IMG/VR virus record: IMGVR_UViG_3300044949_001141
Location: 1 to 22,432 of that record
Origin: a virus
Reading direction: 5' to 3' (one strand)
Length of the DNA stretch: 22,432 nucleotides
In this document: positions 1 through 20,208 of the stretch, in pieces
Position numbering within the stretch: position 1 is the stretch's first letter
Layout of the letters: each line of letters opens with the position of its first letter
The notes under the pieces: model-generated
Told to the model about the DNA's origin: nothing
Databases searched by the model: none
Seen by the model: only the letters and a program-made list of their open reading frames with translations
Program-made: the position numbers and the translations under genes

Positions 1-83
1 ATAATACGCGCCGTATCATGAGACACGCCGTATTCCATGACTATGTCATCTATCATATCGTTAAGCCATTGCTCGGTAGTCAT
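1..83 (-). CDS. Hypothetical protein, N-terminal part only (cut by window edge)
   Basis: An ATG at 83 opens a frame that stays open for 27 codons to the window edge (it begins MTTEQWLNDMIDDIVMEYGV). It overlaps the last 23 nt of the cytosine methyltransferase gene, which fits the overlapping layout of this operon, although 4-nt overlaps are more usual here. A weak purine stretch (AGAAG) lies just upstream. The visible part is acidic and probably helical. No family can be assigned from so short a piece. It may be the next gene of the early operon, or an accidental open frame. Confidence 0.4.
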   Translation of the reverse strand, partial: MTTEQWLNDMIDDIVMEYGVSHDTARI

Positions 84-933
84 GGTCTTCTATTGCCTTG
101 AATATCTGATAAACAACTTGAGGGACAATTGCATTTCCATACGCCTTTATGCTTTCTTTTCGCCATTTAGAAAAGGTAATTCTGTCCAATCTGTCGGAAA
201 TCCCATCATTTCTGCTACAAATTGGGTATTTAGTTGGGAACTTTTCCCATGAACTGCAAATTGATCCGCTAAATTGTCTGCTTTTATTTTGTATCTCCCC
301 CTTTTTTTCAATGCTTCTATTGAACTTGAGCCGTTTGCTATCATTGTTGTTGGTGTCGGTAGTAAGCCGCTTCCTGCCATTACTGATAGCTCTGTTTTCC
401 CTATCTGACTCGGACTGTTCTCTTTCCCCTTCGCATCTTGACAAGTCGGCGTAGGCAACAAACCAAACGCGGTCTCTTCGGTGCGGCGCGTTGACGGCTG
501 CAGCTGGAATAACAATCGGCCATACGGCGTAACCTTCAGCTTCCAAGTCAGTACACACCTCGTCGAAAACAAGTCCGCCGTTCCAAGTAACGAGTCCATA
601 AACATTTTCCCCCACGATGTAGCGCGGTTTGACTTCTCGAACAACTCGAAGCATTTCGGGCCAAAGGTGACGGGCATCGTCTTTCCCTTTTCTTTTGCCC
701 GCTGCGCTGTACGGCTGACAAGGGAAGCCTCCAGTGAGGATGTCGATTCTATCTCTAAATTCAGAGAAATCTGATTTGGTAATATCTCCATAGTGCTTTG
801 ACTCCGGCCAATAATGGCTTAATACTTTTGATCCAAACTCATTAAATTCACAATGGAATGTATTATGCCATCCCATCCACTCGGCTGCAAGCTCAAAGCC
901 TCCAATACCGCTAAATAAACTGCCATGCCTCAT
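61..933 (-). CDS. C5-cytosine DNA methyltransferase (Dcm family), orphan
   Basis: This 290-aa protein carries the ordered motifs of C5-cytosine methyltransferases: motif I FSGIGG (7-12) for S-adenosylmethionine, motif IV GGFPCQ with the catalytic Cys72, motif VI GENV (108-111), motif VIII HRRDRVW (151-157), and motif IX/X ending in GNAIVPQ (266-272). The stretch at about 160-240 between VIII and X is the likely target-recognition region and is short. The enzyme should methylate cytosine C5 at a specific site in DNA. No restriction endonuclease is adjacent, so a role in protecting the phage genome from host restriction is the natural inference. The start codon overlaps the stop of the upstream helicase by 4 nt (ATGA), which implies translational coupling. 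Another long ORF lies inside this gene in a different frame on the same strand (see the entry at 147-677). Confidence 0.93.
   Translation of the reverse strand: MRHGSLFSGIGGFELAAEWMGWHNTFHCEFNEFGSKVLSHYWPESKHYGDITKSDFSEFRDRIDILTGGFPCQPYSAAGKRKGKDDARHLWPEMLRVVREVKPRYIVGENVYGLVTWNGGLVFDEVCTDLEAEGYAVWPIVIPAAAVNAPHRRDRVWFVAYADLSRCEGEREQSESDRENRAISNGRKRLTTDTNNNDSKRLKFNRSIEKKGEIQNKSRQFSGSICSSWEKFPTKYPICSRNDGISDRLDRITFSKWRKESIKAYGNAIVPQVVYQIFKAIEDHDYRAMA
147..677 (-). CDS. Overprinted ORF inside the C5-methyltransferase gene (176 aa from 677; open to 791)
   Basis: A same-strand frame different from that of the methyltransferase stays open from 791 to 147 (214 codons). The ATG at 677 is preceded by AAAAGGGAAAGACG, a usable ribosome site, giving 176 aa; a start at 791 would give 214 aa. 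The product is not junk-like. It contains FGPKCFELFEKSN near its start, the segment LTWKLKVTPYGRLLFQL, two LLPTPT repeats, and a C-terminal MMGFPTDWTELPFLNGE. From memory, ORFs with SSW, TWK, GLLPTPT and MGFPxxWT motifs recur next to or inside phage dcm genes, but I cannot search to confirm this. Part of the similarity could be a passive result of conservation in the methyltransferase frame; for example, LPTPT is the shifted reading of the motif VIII tail. Function unknown. Treat it as a possible real overlapping gene. Confidence 0.4.
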   Translation of the reverse strand: MPVTFGPKCFELFEKSNRATSWGKMFMDSLLGTADLFSTRCVLTWKLKVTPYGRLLFQLQPSTRRTEETAFGLLPTPTCQDAKGKENSPSQIGKTELSVMAGSGLLPTPTTMIANGSSSIEALKKRGRYKIKADNLADQFAVHGKSSQLNTQFVAEMMGFPTDWTELPFLNGEKKA

Positions 934-5258: not shown

Positions 5259-5822
5259 TCACGATCTAAATTGTTCATGTCGAGTCCAAAGATAGTCTTC
5301 GATTTTTTGCGCTGTAAGTTGCACTTGCGAGTATGTATCAAGCTCATCCATAGCCGCGTAAATATGATGCGATAGAGTCGAGCGATTCATGTCGAGGTAT
5401 TCGGCAATCATGGATGATGTGAGCTTCAGATATACGGTCGCAAAAAATATAAACATACGCTTTGCTGCTATTAGCTCTTGGAATCTTACCTTGTCTCGAA
5501 GCGTGTGTTTTGTCGGGAAATACTTTAGCACTTCGACTTCAAGCCCGGAAAGCTCGGCGTATGGGTACTCGAATGCAAAGTCAATGCCTCTCTTCATAAA
5601 GTAAGCGCTCTTAGTTTTCGGATCAACTCTAGCATACTGAAGTTGTGGTCTCTTTTGTTTTGCAAAGTAATAATCTGCTAGGTTATTCTTAGTTTTTATT
5701 GCTTGTTTGGTTTTGCGTTCGAGTTCTTCGCGTTCCTCTCTTAGTTGCTCTGATAGGCTTTTGCCTTTGATAAAGGGGGAGGCTAAGCCATCCCCCTCGT
5801 CGTATATCATATTGTGATTCAT
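5259..5822 (-). CDS. HTH protein with DnaA domain IV-like C-terminus, copy 1
   Basis: In this 187-aa protein, the N-terminal part carries LSEQLREERE (about 22-32), a segment shared almost exactly, also at DNA level, with the protein encoded at 8186-8494. A lysine-rich stretch follows. The C-terminal part (about 108-178) looks like a DnaA domain IV or similar helix-turn-helix: VRFQELIAAKRMFIFFATVY, then SSMIAEYLDMNRSTLSHHI (136-154). In that segment RSTLSHHI is placed like the DHTTVLHA signature of DnaA. Two DnaA-IV-like genes in a row suggest a paired role at the origin. Start: the ATG overlaps the stop of the methyltransferase by 4 nt and has GAGGAG upstream. It may equally be a regulator with a generic HTH. 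Confidence 0.6.
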   Translation of the reverse strand: MNHNMIYDEGDGLASPFIKGKSLSEQLREEREELERKTKQAIKTKNNLADYYFAKQKRPQLQYARVDPKTKSAYFMKRGIDFAFEYPYAELSGLEVEVLKYFPTKHTLRDKVRFQELIAAKRMFIFFATVYLKLTSSMIAEYLDMNRSTLSHHIYAAMDELDTYSQVQLTAQKIEDYLWTRHEQFRS

Positions 5823-6802
5823 GCAAATATCTCCTCTTGCACTTTGTCTCTGAATCTATTCTTTGCCTCTTTTAGATTTAGTATAGCTTGTTTAAAGTAG
5901 CTATCTTTTAATTCTATTCCGATTGCTTTGCGACCAAGAGATACAGGAGAATATACTTCAGATCCGACTCCCATAAATGGAGTAAGTACGACTTCGCGTG
6001 GATTGCTATACAGTTCTACTATTCTATCAATCACATCAAGTTGCAGAGGATGTACATGTTTTTCATCGTCTTCATCTTTTGAGTCTCTGAAAGGCAACAC
6101 ATTATCTATGCGAATATCGTCCCATACAGAGCTCGCATATCTTTGCCATGTTAAATGAGAAAGTTTATTTCCTGAAGGATCACCGTCATAGTCTTGCCAT
6201 TTCTTTTTAAAGTCTTTGTAATTTCCGTAGGTCTCTTTGTGAGCTTCTAAAAATGGAGTATCTCCAAAGTATTCAGTAAGTCCGCATGGATGAGTGACTG
6301 GTACTTGATTATCACCAGCTTTAGTAAATATCAATACATAATCCGGCATTGCTGTAAAGCATTTTGTAGAATCTTCTACAATGAATTTATGCATTAAAGA
6401 TTGTACCATTGTTCGCATTCTTACTTTAAGAGGCTCCTTCCAAACTGTAATACGATTACGATAATGAAAATTATATTTTTCATGTATTCTAATAATCTCA
6501 TGAGGGAAGTCCCATAGATAGCATCGGTTATCGAAAACATCCGTACAATGTACTGCAGTGATTCTACCAGGCTTAGTTACTCTTGATATTTCTTGGACTA
6601 GGTATTCATATTGTTGTAAAAACTGCTCGCGAGATTCGCAATTACTGAAGTCGTTTTCATGAGAGCTGTAATTATACAGACCTGCAAAAGGTGGGGAATA
6701 TACGCTTAAATCTACTGAATCATTTGGCAAAGTTGGTAATACATACATACAATCAGAATTATAGATTGCATAGTCTTCGGTTACGACTTGTTCTTTTATC
6801 AT
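5819..6802 (-). CDS. Beta-class DNA methyltransferase (N4-cytosine or N6-adenine)
   Basis: In this 327-aa protein, the catalytic motif IV VYSPPF (34-39) comes first and the S-adenosylmethionine motif I TPFMGVGS (about 274-281), followed by GRKAIGIELKDSYF, comes near the C-terminus. This IV-then-I order defines the beta class of amino-methyltransferases. SPP(F/W/Y) is the usual N4-cytosine form of the motif, while N6-adenine enzymes usually have (D/N)PP(Y/F/W), so N4-cytosine is favoured but not certain. The central region about 120-230 is probably the target-recognition part. It follows the SNF2-like helicase after only 4 nt and has no clear ribosome site, so it probably depends on coupled translation. 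No endonuclease partner is visible. Base composition is AT-richer than in the flanking genes. Confidence 0.9.
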   Translation of the reverse strand: MIKEQVVTEDYAIYNSDCMYVLPTLPNDSVDLSVYSPPFAGLYNYSSHENDFSNCESREQFLQQYEYLVQEISRVTKPGRITAVHCTDVFDNRCYLWDFPHEIIRIHEKYNFHYRNRITVWKEPLKVRMRTMVQSLMHKFIVEDSTKCFTAMPDYVLIFTKAGDNQVPVTHPCGLTEYFGDTPFLEAHKETYGNYKDFKKKWQDYDGDPSGNKLSHLTWQRYASSVWDDIRIDNVLPFRDSKDEDDEKHVHPLQLDVIDRIVELYSNPREVVLTPFMGVGSEVYSPVSLGRKAIGIELKDSYFKQAILNLKEAKNRFRDKVQEEIFA

Positions 6803-16311: not shown

Positions 16312-19300
16312 TTATCCTCTCCTTGCATTACGGCGGCGATCTCTTTCGATTACGGCCTTGATTGAGTTATTATCGGCTACAAGCGCGCCGCTTATTTCTA
16401 CATGAGTATTTCGGTTGATTTGCTTGCCTAATCCGCGCGTCTCTTCCCGAAGCTTCCTAACCTCTTGTATCAAGTTACCATCCTCTTGCACTGAATAGCG
16501 AATTTGCGGAGCGTTTGAAGTAAAGTAATCACGAATACTCATTCCGGGGTTATTATTCATCCATTCGAGCTCTTCGCGATTTGCACGCGTCCCCGCGGCG
16601 GTAATAACTGACTCGCCTTTCGATAGCCATGCTGGTATAGAGTCGCTTCTTTCATCTCCCGGGCCTTCGAGTCCTACGACCCCGTCTTTGAAGCCGAGAG
16701 CGCCTCTGGCGCTTGCTAAAAGCAACTGAAGCCCTGCAGTTAGGGTAGCCGCAATGATAGGCCCTGCAATAGGCCCGAGTGTGGTGATCGAGCTTCCCAA
16801 AATACCTACGACAAAAGACGGTATCATCTTAGAGACGGCATCAAACGCCGCGCCTGCGGCTGCATTTCCGAAGTCTGCTAGGGTCGCTTTTCCTGAAGCT
16901 GCGAGCGTTCCGAACTGCTCTAAAGTTTGACCGACAAATTCATTAAAGATTTTCTGATTTCCTTCCATGCCTTGAGCGTTTTTCTTAAATATCTCGGATT
17001 GAGATTTTAGCACGCTCGCGGCCGCTTGATCGCCTGCACCTTTGAGCCTTTGCAAAAAAGTGACTTCAGTTTGCTCTTCAACTTGTTTTCTTTGCGCGTC
17101 AATATCTGCAATCTTAGCAGCATAATCCTCGAAAGAAATTTCTCTCTTTGCAAGGCTGGTATTGAGATCGTCTTCTTCAGCATTGAGCGCTCCTAATCTC
17201 TCTTGTCTAATTTGCTCATTTGTCTCTCTTTCTTTTCTGATTTTTTCTATATTGAAAGCATCATTAAGAGCAGCTTGAAAAGTAAGAAGAGCACCTGACA
17301 AACCAGAGTTCTTTTCTATTTCTTGAGCAGAATCTTCGGAGAACCTTTTGAAGCGTCGATACATATCATCGAGCGTGCTTTGATTTGCTTGCTGTAATTT
17401 AGTCAAAGACTCCAAGCTTTTCGTATCGCCTACATCTCTTGCAAGTTGTATCTTTTCTTGCAATAAGACTTGCTCATCAATAAGCATCTGATTGAAGTTA
17501 GTAAAAGCGTTCTCGGCGCTTGCTAACTCTTCGGATGTTTTCGCTGGTGCCTTGAAAAGCGTCTCAAGTGTTTTGCTATATTCTTTCCCTGTATTTTCGG
17601 CTTCTTTGACAAACTCTCCGAGCTCTTTAAGTAGCTCGTCTCGCCATGTCATATCGGCTACGACTTTGACTTCAACTTGCTTACTAAGCTTCGCCATCTC
17701 TTGCGTATAGAAATTATCTATATCCGCAACAGTCTCGCCTTTCTTTTTGCTTGGAGTTATCTTTGCAGTGAGTTGATTTTTATCAAGAAATACATTAGCA
17801 TCTGCAATGCCACCAACACGCTCGTTAAGGTATTTTTTTAGTTCGACATTTGCTTCGGCTTCAAGTTGCGCTCGTATTGCTTTTAAATCCTTACCTCTGT
17901 TTGCTTCAGAGTTAAGCTCGCGCTCAATATCATTTTCAAGCTCGTCTTGGCGGCCTTTGTAGAATCTTTTGAGTTCCTGAAGTTCGGATTCTGCTTCTGC
18001 TCCTTTCCCTTTTGCATTTGCGAGCGCTAATTTTCTTAATCTTTCCTTCTCTGCAGCATCCGCTTTCTCTTTGGCTGCTTTCTCAGCCGCTGCTTTTGCA
18101 GCCGCTGCTTTTGCAGCTTCATTTGCAGCGTCTTCATTGCCTTTTTTTACAACTTGATTAGTTTTTTGAATTTGTTCTTTTGTAGCATTAAATCCCTTGT
18201 CATACGCTTGAGTAAGTTTATCACCAAAACCAGTGAATGCAGAGAGCGCCTTTTGAATATCTAATTGCGTAATAGCATCCCAAAACTCACCAATAGTAGT
18301 TTTGATTTGAATAAATGACTCGCGAACTCCTCCGATAGTTCCTCGGATGTTATCGAATGCTTGTCGAAGTGTATCGATAAAGCCTTTGCTATTTTGCGCG
18401 GCTTTTCCTGATTCCTTCATAGATTCCGTACTTGAATCATTTGTCGATATCCATTCTGCAATAGAGCGGGTCACATCGGCAATAACTTCGATAAGCGTTT
18501 GGAATGGAGTGATAAGAAACTCGATAATAAGCCCGCCAATATCGGCAACAATACCACCAACTTCGCGAATAACCTCACCAACAAAATTCAAAGCCTCTTG
18601 GAATGATTGTACTACTGTTTTTCCTTGACCTACAGCTCCATCCTCTCCAAATGCTTGCGAGAAAACATCGATTAGCGGTCTTAGAGAGCTTGCAATAGAG
18701 TCAAATATGCTTGTAAAGATATCAAGTACGGTAGTGACTACAGTAATTGCAATGTTAAAAGCTCCGACAATGTTAGTCATAATTGCAGCGCCGATTCCCA
18801 TCACAATCGGACCGATTACAGTCCATATCCTCTCGAATACACCGCTCAAAGTCGCACCAAGTTCGGAGAATGCAGGCCCCACTGCAGTCGCAATCATTCC
18901 GAATGCATCTGAAGCGCCTTTCACTACGACTGCGCTTGCTTTTGTGAATGCAAGTTCTAAGTTACGACTCACCATGTCAAAACTAAGATACTGACCCGCA
19001 GCATTCATAGCATCTTGACCCGCTTTCGCTGCTTTCTTCTTGATTTCTTCAGTCGGTATTGGAGCGCCAAACATTTTATTATACGCTTCGACTCCAATAT
19101 CTTCCGCGGGCGTTCCGGCGACTGCTACTTGTAATTGAGTAGCCATCGCTTCGGAGATTTGACCTGCATCAAACGCCGTTTTGATTGATTCCCCTGACTT
19201 TTGCAAGAATTCTTTGATTGTGATTTGACCACTAGATGCAAGTTGCTCAAGATTCCCAAGAGTTGAACCAAGCGCTTGAGGTAATTGGTTTTTAATTTCT

Positions 19301-20208
19301 GCAAAAGCCTTTGCAGTATCACCTGCTTTAAGTCTGATTTGAGCTTCTTTGATCGAGTCTGCAATCTTGTCGGTATTAAACAATCCCTCTTGACCTGCGA
19401 TTGCCATTTGACCCGCGAACTCCTCAGCGCTGAATCCCGCTTCACTTAGTAATTGCGAGTATTCGGCAAGCGTATCGAGTACATCGTCTTGCGAAGTCTT
19501 ACCCTCTTTTGCGGCGAATGCAATTAAGTCGAATGCTTCTTGACCATCAAGCCCAAACTGCTTAATAAACGGCGTTGACTTGGCAATAACTTCGTTAACA
19601 TCCTTCTCATACAAATTACCAAGAGCTTGCGCGCCTTTTACGAATTCTCCGATTTGGTCGGTAGGCAAGGCATCCTTAAGTACTACCTTTGCATTACTGA
19701 TTACTTTTGTAGCTTCGGCTACTGATTCACCAACCCCACCGAGGAACGCCTCATCGGCTGCATTTTTTAGTGCCTCAAATTCCTCACCCGTAGCACCTGT
19801 TTGTGCTTGCAAATCGCCTTGAGCCGATATAAGCCCGCGACCTGCATCAACAACCGCCCCAAAGCCATCAATGATAGCACCGACCCCCGCTTGCACGCCA
19901 GCGGCCAAGCCACCACCTACAAGCCCTCCAATCAAACCACCGCTAAGAGCGTCACCTAGCCCGCCTTTGAGTCCTTCAAATACACCGCTTATACCGCTTG
20001 CAGAATCACCAACGCCATCAATCGCCGCGGATAGCTTGTTGACATCTGCGACGGCGCTCGAAGTATTTATATCGGCCATTTTATCAAGTGCTTGGTCGGT
20101 TTGCTTCGACTCATTTTGCACCTGATTAAGTTCGGTAGTGACTTTATTCAGACCGTTGAATAATTCGGCTGCATCCAGTCCAAGTTTAATTTTGATATCA
20201 TCGGCCAT
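16312..20208 (-). CDS. Tape measure protein
   Basis: A 1298-aa protein, the longest in the window and mostly helical. It has a heptad-rich N-terminus (1-60); a glycine-rich hydrophobic stretch at 79-125; a second hydrophobic region at about 430-580 (IGPIVMGIGAAIMTNIVGAF and onward), typical of the part that enters the host membrane; an Ala/Lys coiled coil at about 690-800; and another hydrophobic stretch about 100 residues from the end. The last of these precedes GPGDERSDSIPAWLSKGESVI (split: GPGDERSDSIPAW and LSKGESVI), a C-terminal signature of many tape measure proteins. It sets tail length. At about 0.15 nm per residue a tail near 190 nm is expected if it is not cleaved. The ATG at 20208 overlaps the chaperone T frame by 11 nt. 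Confidence 0.93.
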   Translation of the reverse strand: MADDIKIKLGLDAAELFNGLNKVTTELNQVQNESKQTDQALDKMADINTSSAVADVNKLSAAIDGVGDSASGISGVFEGLKGGLGDALSGGLIGGLVGGGLAAGVQAGVGAIIDGFGAVVDAGRGLISAQGDLQAQTGATGEEFEALKNAADEAFLGGVGESVAEATKVISNAKVVLKDALPTDQIGEFVKGAQALGNLYEKDVNEVIAKSTPFIKQFGLDGQEAFDLIAFAAKEGKTSQDDVLDTLAEYSQLLSEAGFSAEEFAGQMAIAGQEGLFNTDKIADSIKEAQIRLKAGDTAKAFAEIKNQLPQALGSTLGNLEQLASSGQITIKEFLQKSGESIKTAFDAGQISEAMATQLQVAVAGTPAEDIGVEAYNKMFGAPIPTEEIKKKAAKAGQDAMNAAGQYLSFDMVSRNLELAFTKASAVVVKGASDAFGMIATAVGPAFSELGATLSGVFERIWTVIGPIVMGIGAAIMTNIVGAFNIAITVVTTVLDIFTSIFDSIASSLRPLIDVFSQAFGEDGAVGQGKTVVQSFQEALNFVGEVIREVGGIVADIGGLIIEFLITPFQTLIEVIADVTRSIAEWISTNDSSTESMKESGKAAQNSKGFIDTLRQAFDNIRGTIGGVRESFIQIKTTIGEFWDAITQLDIQKALSAFTGFGDKLTQAYDKGFNATKEQIQKTNQVVKKGNEDAANEAAKAAAAKAAAEKAAKEKADAAEKERLRKLALANAKGKGAEAESELQELKRFYKGRQDELENDIERELNSEANRGKDLKAIRAQLEAEANVELKKYLNERVGGIADANVFLDKNQLTAKITPSKKKGETVADIDNFYTQEMAKLSKQVEVKVVADMTWRDELLKELGEFVKEAENTGKEYSKTLETLFKAPAKTSEELASAENAFTNFNQMLIDEQVLLQEKIQLARDVGDTKSLESLTKLQQANQSTLDDMYRRFKRFSEDSAQEIEKNSGLSGALLTFQAALNDAFNIEKIRKERETNEQIRQERLGALNAEEDDLNTSLAKREISFEDYAAKIADIDAQRKQVEEQTEVTFLQRLKGAGDQAAASVLKSQSEIFKKNAQGMEGNQKIFNEFVGQTLEQFGTLAASGKATLADFGNAAAGAAFDAVSKMIPSFVVGILGSSITTLGPIAGPIIAATLTAGLQLLLASARGALGFKDGVVGLEGPGDERSDSIPAWLSKGESVITAAGTRANREELEWMNNNPGMSIRDYFTSNAPQIRYSVQEDGNLIQEVRKLREETRGLGKQINRNTHVEISGALVADNNSIKAVIERDRRRNARRG
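18086..18115. repeat. Two tandem 15-bp units in the tape measure gene
   Basis: GCCGCTGCTTTTGCA occurs twice in direct succession (18086-18100 and 18101-18115). It encodes the repeated A-K-A-A-A pattern in the coiled-coil segment near residue 700. A unit length divisible by three keeps the frame, so this could be a site of in-frame expansion or contraction affecting ruler length slightly. Confidence 0.85.

Follow-up and report, generated by a model that had tools for sequence, protein, structure and literature searches.

The window that we analysed is a stretch of 22,432 nucleotides of DNA, a 22.4-kb viral contig with genes for helicase, primase, a second DNA methyltransferase and tail proteins, almost all on the minus strand; Rfam and tRNA scans of these 22.4 kb found nothing. 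Near one end lies a C5-cytosine methyltransferase gene, which we call alpha, and inside it, on the same strand and offset by +1, runs a 214-codon open frame, beta. An earlier, sequence-only reading had pointed to this nested frame and had listed several of its parts, and these are in place: a 176-codon version beginning at the ATG at 677, a ribosome-site candidate (AAAAGGGA) at 684-691, and, in the beta translation, FGPKCFELF, TWKLKVTP, two LLPTPT repeats and a C-terminal MMGFPTDWTELPF. In the window sequence the ATG at 677 is preceded by GCAAAAGAAAAGGGAAAGACG. The features of the two frames are the following.

61 to 933, minus strand: alpha, the catalytic polypeptide of a C5-cytosine methyltransferase, 290 aa, with motifs I-VIII and X
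147 to 791, minus strand: the beta open frame, 214 aa, offset by +1 relative to alpha
147 to 677, minus strand: the beta polypeptide from its likelier, putative start (ATG at 677), 176 aa
898 to 915, minus strand: alpha motif I (FSGIGG), from the sequence, in columns invariant across the homologue alignment
706 to 723, minus strand: alpha motif IV with the catalytic Cys (PCQPYS), from the sequence, in columns invariant across the homologue alignment
684 to 691, minus strand: AAAAGGGA, candidate ribosome-binding site of beta, by match to a consensus only
601 to 609, minus strand: alpha motif VI (ENV), from the sequence, in columns invariant across the homologue alignment
463 to 483, minus strand: alpha motif VIII (HRRDRVW), from the sequence, in columns conserved across the homologue alignment
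363 to 458, minus strand: beta LPTP module 1 (LPTPTCQDAKGKENSPSQIGKTELSVMAGSGL), proposed target-recognition module, the same as module 2 of locus L002; the alpha frame is unconstrained here
252 to 362, minus strand: beta LPTP module 2, proposed target-recognition module from module matches and constraint; the alpha model is disordered (residues 177-243)
183 to 242, minus strand: beta motif IX (SSQLNTQFVAEMMGFPTDWT), with motif IX of E. coli Dcm as its top hhalign match and the strongest constraint of the gene
115 to 138, minus strand: alpha motif X (GNAIVPQV), downstream of the beta stop codon, from the sequence and from the alpha-frame motif X of 145 relatives

Alpha carries the features of a C5-cytosine methyltransferase, motifs I, IV, VI, VIII and X with the catalytic PCQ all being present. 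It matches PF00145 (E=1.4e-45), over residues 1-214 only, and the dcm family TIGR00675 (140 bits, cut-off 100.65). In a PDB profile search the alpha profile matches M.HhaI over motifs I-VIII, and the predicted model of alpha matches the M.HhaI catalytic domain (E=2e-14); the model is disordered at residues 177-243, where the recognition domain and motif IX would be expected. Alpha has no target-recognition domain or motif IX of its own: the gap is disordered and unconstrained, and 145 loci of the window's group have motif IX in the +1 frame but motif X in alpha, whereas none of the group has motif IX in alpha.

The 147-791 frame is a real overlapping gene. We measured chance by shuffling synonymous codons while keeping the alpha protein, in 500 trials, and a +1 run as long as that of the window gene arose in 0.4% of them. 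In 84 distinct viral homologues the +1 frame stays open for a median of 242 codons, where the codon shuffles predict about 99; at 80% of these loci the observed run was never reached in 500 shuffles, and the highest p among the 84 is 0.014. By the same test the +2 frame of these homologues is as expected (median p 0.67), and 17 monomeric Dcm-type controls, relatives of E. coli Dcm, show no significant +1 excess (smallest p 0.057). Searching bacterial genomes with a beta profile yielded 80 loci, and alpha lies in the same +1 register in 80/80. Alpha is also kept open, because shuffles that preserve beta close it almost always by introducing stops (median probability of an open frame 0/300 across 79 loci). 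Stop codons in the alternative frame of homologues, which had been proposed as evidence against an overlapping gene, occur in no intact homologue of this type.

Selection on the two frames was separated by sorting substitutions according to their effect on each frame in 33 homologue pairs without shared members. Where beta does not overlap it, alpha shows synonymous differences of 0.42-0.53; they amount to 0.34-0.37 across beta residues 1-38, 0.29 across beta residues 39-58, and 0.17-0.23 beyond residue 58 as far as alpha motif VIII. Over the modules the value is 0.36, and at motif IX, in the last 29 codons of beta, suppression is strongest with 0.075. In the module region the alpha ratio NN/SN is 1.02 (95% 0.93-1.15), that is, no constraint on alpha, and the beta ratio NN/NS is 0.49 (95% 0.41-0.58), that is, a constrained beta; at motif IX the beta ratio falls to 0.16 (0.12-0.20). 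Even where the genes do not overlap, NN/NS of the +1 frame has a baseline under 1 (0.60-0.99 for the main set, 0.38 for a sister set), so the weight rests mainly on the lost synonymous change and on its location. Beta residues 1-38 have no constraint of their own beyond doubt, and constraint becomes clear from about the codon of the ATG at 677. The 33-pair analysis thus finds excess constraint in the alternative frame after the methyltransferase frame is accounted for, and the open-frame and constraint tests together bear out the sequence-only reading's proposal of a real overlapping pair in which selection acts on both frames.

Beta is best explained as the other, putative recognition half of the same enzyme, carrying motif IX (SQLNTQFVAEMMGFPTDW). 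It matches the phage family phrog_1008, labelled DNA methyltransferase (E=2.2e-27), as do 64/64 beta proteins of our alignment, so that phrog_1008 is the same protein family as beta; its label names the whole enzyme and is silent on the product being a nested recognition subunit. Beta has no match in Pfam or NCBIfam, and its profile finds nothing up to E=10 among PDB sequences. The predicted model of beta is poor (pLDDT 60, pTM 0.29), and Foldseek with this poor model returned no meaningful structural relative. Invariant beta residues include MMGF, W202, T203 and P206. In profile comparisons the best match aligns SSQLNTQFVAEMMGFP with RRLTPRECARLMGFE, which is motif IX of Dcm, at E=0.018 for whole beta and 0.0032 for the C-terminus of beta, and the beta C-terminus matches the in-frame motif IX of a sister family at 5.4e-5, all of these E-values coming from single profile comparisons with no database-scale calibration. 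The suggestion that beta might be a methyltransferase accessory or inhibitor was close in its first half, since beta resembles the missing recognition half, and nothing supports the second. The sequence-only reading had also pointed to comparable sets of motifs in ORFs next to or inside phage dcm genes; phrog_1008 (2e-27) and an 'internal gene' of Paenibacillus phage Diva, described below, confirm this.

Relatives differ in where motif IX or the modules lie, which may be the alpha frame, another gene or a single chain, and the sister families among them decide how beta is to be read. The sister group (L113, L254 and relatives), distinguished by a CxGxxG motif I, has its LPTP modules in the +1 frame and motif IX in alpha beside motif X; the homologous motif IX stands in the alpha frame in 32 loci. 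Its synonymous rate is 0.081 in the modules and 0.414 once motif IX is in alpha, suppression stopping where beta stops. Mycobacteriophage Medusa divides the enzyme between two genes, motifs I-VIII apart from modules, IX and X: alpha ends after motif VIII and the next gene holds the rest (gp78/gp77). In mycobacteriophage ShiLan the modules, IX and X are in the single chain of gp70. The nested design is found in phages and prophages of Bacteroidota, Paenibacillus, Lacticaseibacillus, Klebsiella and E. coli. Klebsiella phage KlebP_265 and E. coli prophages have the arrangement of the window, with alpha alone annotated, and in Paenibacillus phage Diva the depositors annotated beta as 'g49 internal gene'. 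An ATG equivalent to that at 677 is present in 72% of homologues and missing in 28%.

In Stenotrophomonas phage SOVA965 (L199, 1204-1704) what the annotation calls 'DNA-cytosine methyltransferase' is the beta frame and not the catalytic alpha frame. Mycobacterium phage AlpineSix (L197, 1100-1900) has alpha-like motifs over two frames and motif IX in the third, so pieces of one methyltransferase occupy all three frames. Early stops break alpha in two viral contigs, L070 (2859) and L079 (2859), the remainder of both frames being intact. A Bacteroides/Parabacteroides clade (L182, L187-L190, L193, L194, L202/L327) has two to three in-frame TGA codons in alpha and an open beta. These codons, never TAA or TAG, lie nearly all at positions where relatives have Trp, and no suppressor tRNA was found near the Bacteroides loci with a TGA-containing alpha. 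In the B. finegoldii element traK also has a TGA at a likely Trp, although other genes there end in TGA. Readthrough, recoding or decay could each account for these alpha frames.

Between motifs VIII and IX, beta consists of one to four units that begin with LPTP and have a median length of 40 residues. We found 85 matches between modules at differing positions in differing loci, some identical in otherwise diverged genes. The window shares its module 1 with L002 in this way, and the last module of L002 is also the last module of L014, the upstream halves of these two genes being only 75% identical in DNA. On this evidence the modules swap between phages. A size near 40 residues recalls the multispecific Bacillus phage methyltransferases. 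Enzymes of that kind, e.g. M.H2I, have several tandem recognition domains between motifs VIII and IX (PMC8936443); they are single chains in one frame, whereas the modules here lie on an overlapping second chain. Constraint and relatives suggest that the recognition modules are located in beta, and each LPTP module may recognise a sequence. We give about even chances to a model in which beta is an array of interchangeable recognition modules of about 40 residues, one methylation specificity each, shuffled as DNA cassettes with both frames staying open.

A unifying model, in which we have high confidence, is a two-polypeptide C5-cytosine methyltransferase encoded by overlapping frames; one DNA stretch very probably makes two cooperating proteins. 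Alpha (61-933) would supply motifs I-VIII, for cofactor and catalysis, together with motif X as its C-terminal helix. In beta (147-677 or 147-791) there would be an N-terminal segment overlapping the catalytic motifs of alpha, a modular recognition region and motif IX. Between motifs VIII and X alpha would be mainly a passenger, kept open for the ribosome to reach motif X. One message would give both proteins, alpha from its own start and beta from an internal one, for which we favour the ATG at 677 because constraint sets in there. The two chains would then assemble into a single enzyme, with catalysis from alpha and sequence recognition from beta, and the phage would use it to methylate its own DNA against host restriction.

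The offset between the frames is always +1, and relatives like ShiLan hold the modules in the same chain as motifs I-VIII, as might be expected if a programmed +1 ribosomal frameshift near motif VIII produced an alpha-beta fusion (I-VIII, recognition region, IX) beside full-length alpha. We regard such frameshifting as unlikely, because constraint on beta is already present well ahead of motif VIII: synonymous differences of 0.17-0.23 extend across alpha codons 106-162, a part of beta that a shift after motif VIII would leave untranslated. In the sister family, moreover, beta ends before motifs IX and X, both in alpha, and a fusion would lose them. Less probable again is a beta that regulates or inhibits the methyltransferase as a protein in its own right, or that is an unrelated phage protein sharing its DNA. 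Such a protein could lack a Pfam match, and could stay open where the alpha of the Bacteroides clade has in-frame TGA codons, but its motif IX would be hard to understand: beta has the motif where alpha is without it and is without it where alpha has it. In the loci that we examined, moreover, beta never occurred apart from an alpha frame.

We find it hardly credible that beta is a shadow, open and conserved merely through conservation of the methyltransferase protein. This could account for the part of the N-terminal beta similarity that sits over strongly conserved alpha motifs, and for beta residues 1-38 with no clear constraint of their own; however, alpha-preserving shuffles seldom yield such a run and the Dcm controls have none, alpha synonymous sites are suppressed, and over the modules constraint falls on beta and leaves alpha free. 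Within motif IX, the invariant Asp-Gly of alpha is dictated by the codons for Met-Met-Gly in beta, and the converse does not hold. The step from 0.081 to 0.414 in the sister set contradicts a shadow as well. A frameshifted, dead or misassembled single-chain gene can be practically dismissed, even though single-chain relatives exist and PGAP calls some relatives broken pieces, since 84 distinct viral loci and 80 genome loci preserve the arrangement, their two frames being both open and under selection. A pure shadow, a dead gene and an inhibitor were thus considered and rejected, on the shuffles, the constraint, the distribution of motif IX and the conserved arrangement.

The two-polypeptide methyltransferase that we propose has its closest known counterpart in M.EcoHK31I (YGGCCR), reportedly described as a two-polypeptide C5 methyltransferase by Lee, Kam and Shaw in 1995. 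The likeness is one of motif layout: in M.EcoHK31I motifs I-VIII and X are on the large chain and IX on the small chain (PMC3404938), the same split as between alpha and beta. The recognition domain of M.EcoHK31I is predicted in its large subunit (PMC3404938), whereas here constraint and relatives place the recognition region in the small chain. When we looked for M.EcoHK31I in E. coli genomes, prophage relatives came up, none bearing that name. Beta within alpha also shares the nesting of M.EcoHK31I, whose small chain of about 176 aa lies inside the large one in a different frame. M.AquI also has its catalytic motifs and motif IX on different chains, its small chain holding the distal recognition region, IX and X (PMC3404938); here, in contrast, motif X is in alpha and the genes are nested, and Medusa gp78/gp77 is nearer to M.AquI than the window pair is. 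M.BatI (GCDGC), a small prophage C5 methyltransferase, has an unusual motif I of the form CxGxxG, and its recognition region falls short of one domain in length (PMC8936443); our sister family has the same type of motif I (SLCTGYGG) and a short alpha gap.

An arrangement known from one characterised enzyme, M.EcoHK31I, thus turns out to be widespread and mostly unannotated. New here are the apparent placing of recognition modules in beta, their swapping between phages and the taxonomic spread of the design. Gene callers and RefSeq usually list alpha alone, so specificity prediction, recoded-gene cloning and methylome matching would fail for nested enzymes; if alpha were synthesised with optimised codons, beta would be lost. 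The nested design accounts for the many 'dcm' proteins of phages and prophages that seem too short or have no recognition domain, their missing part lying in another frame. If the model of interchangeable modules is true, many short phage cytosine methyltransferases, possibly including M.BatI, get their specificity from an unannotated second protein. These loci are also a large collection from nature of long overlaps between genes on the same strand, with one of the two frames functionally free along part of it.

Elsewhere in the window, a 106-codon frame with a GTG start (19125-19445, minus strand) overlaps the tape-measure gene and is probably due to chance. The second DNA methyltransferase-like gene, recognised by an SPPF motif, lies at 5819-6802 on the minus strand, and with it the phage may have two routes of DNA methylation.
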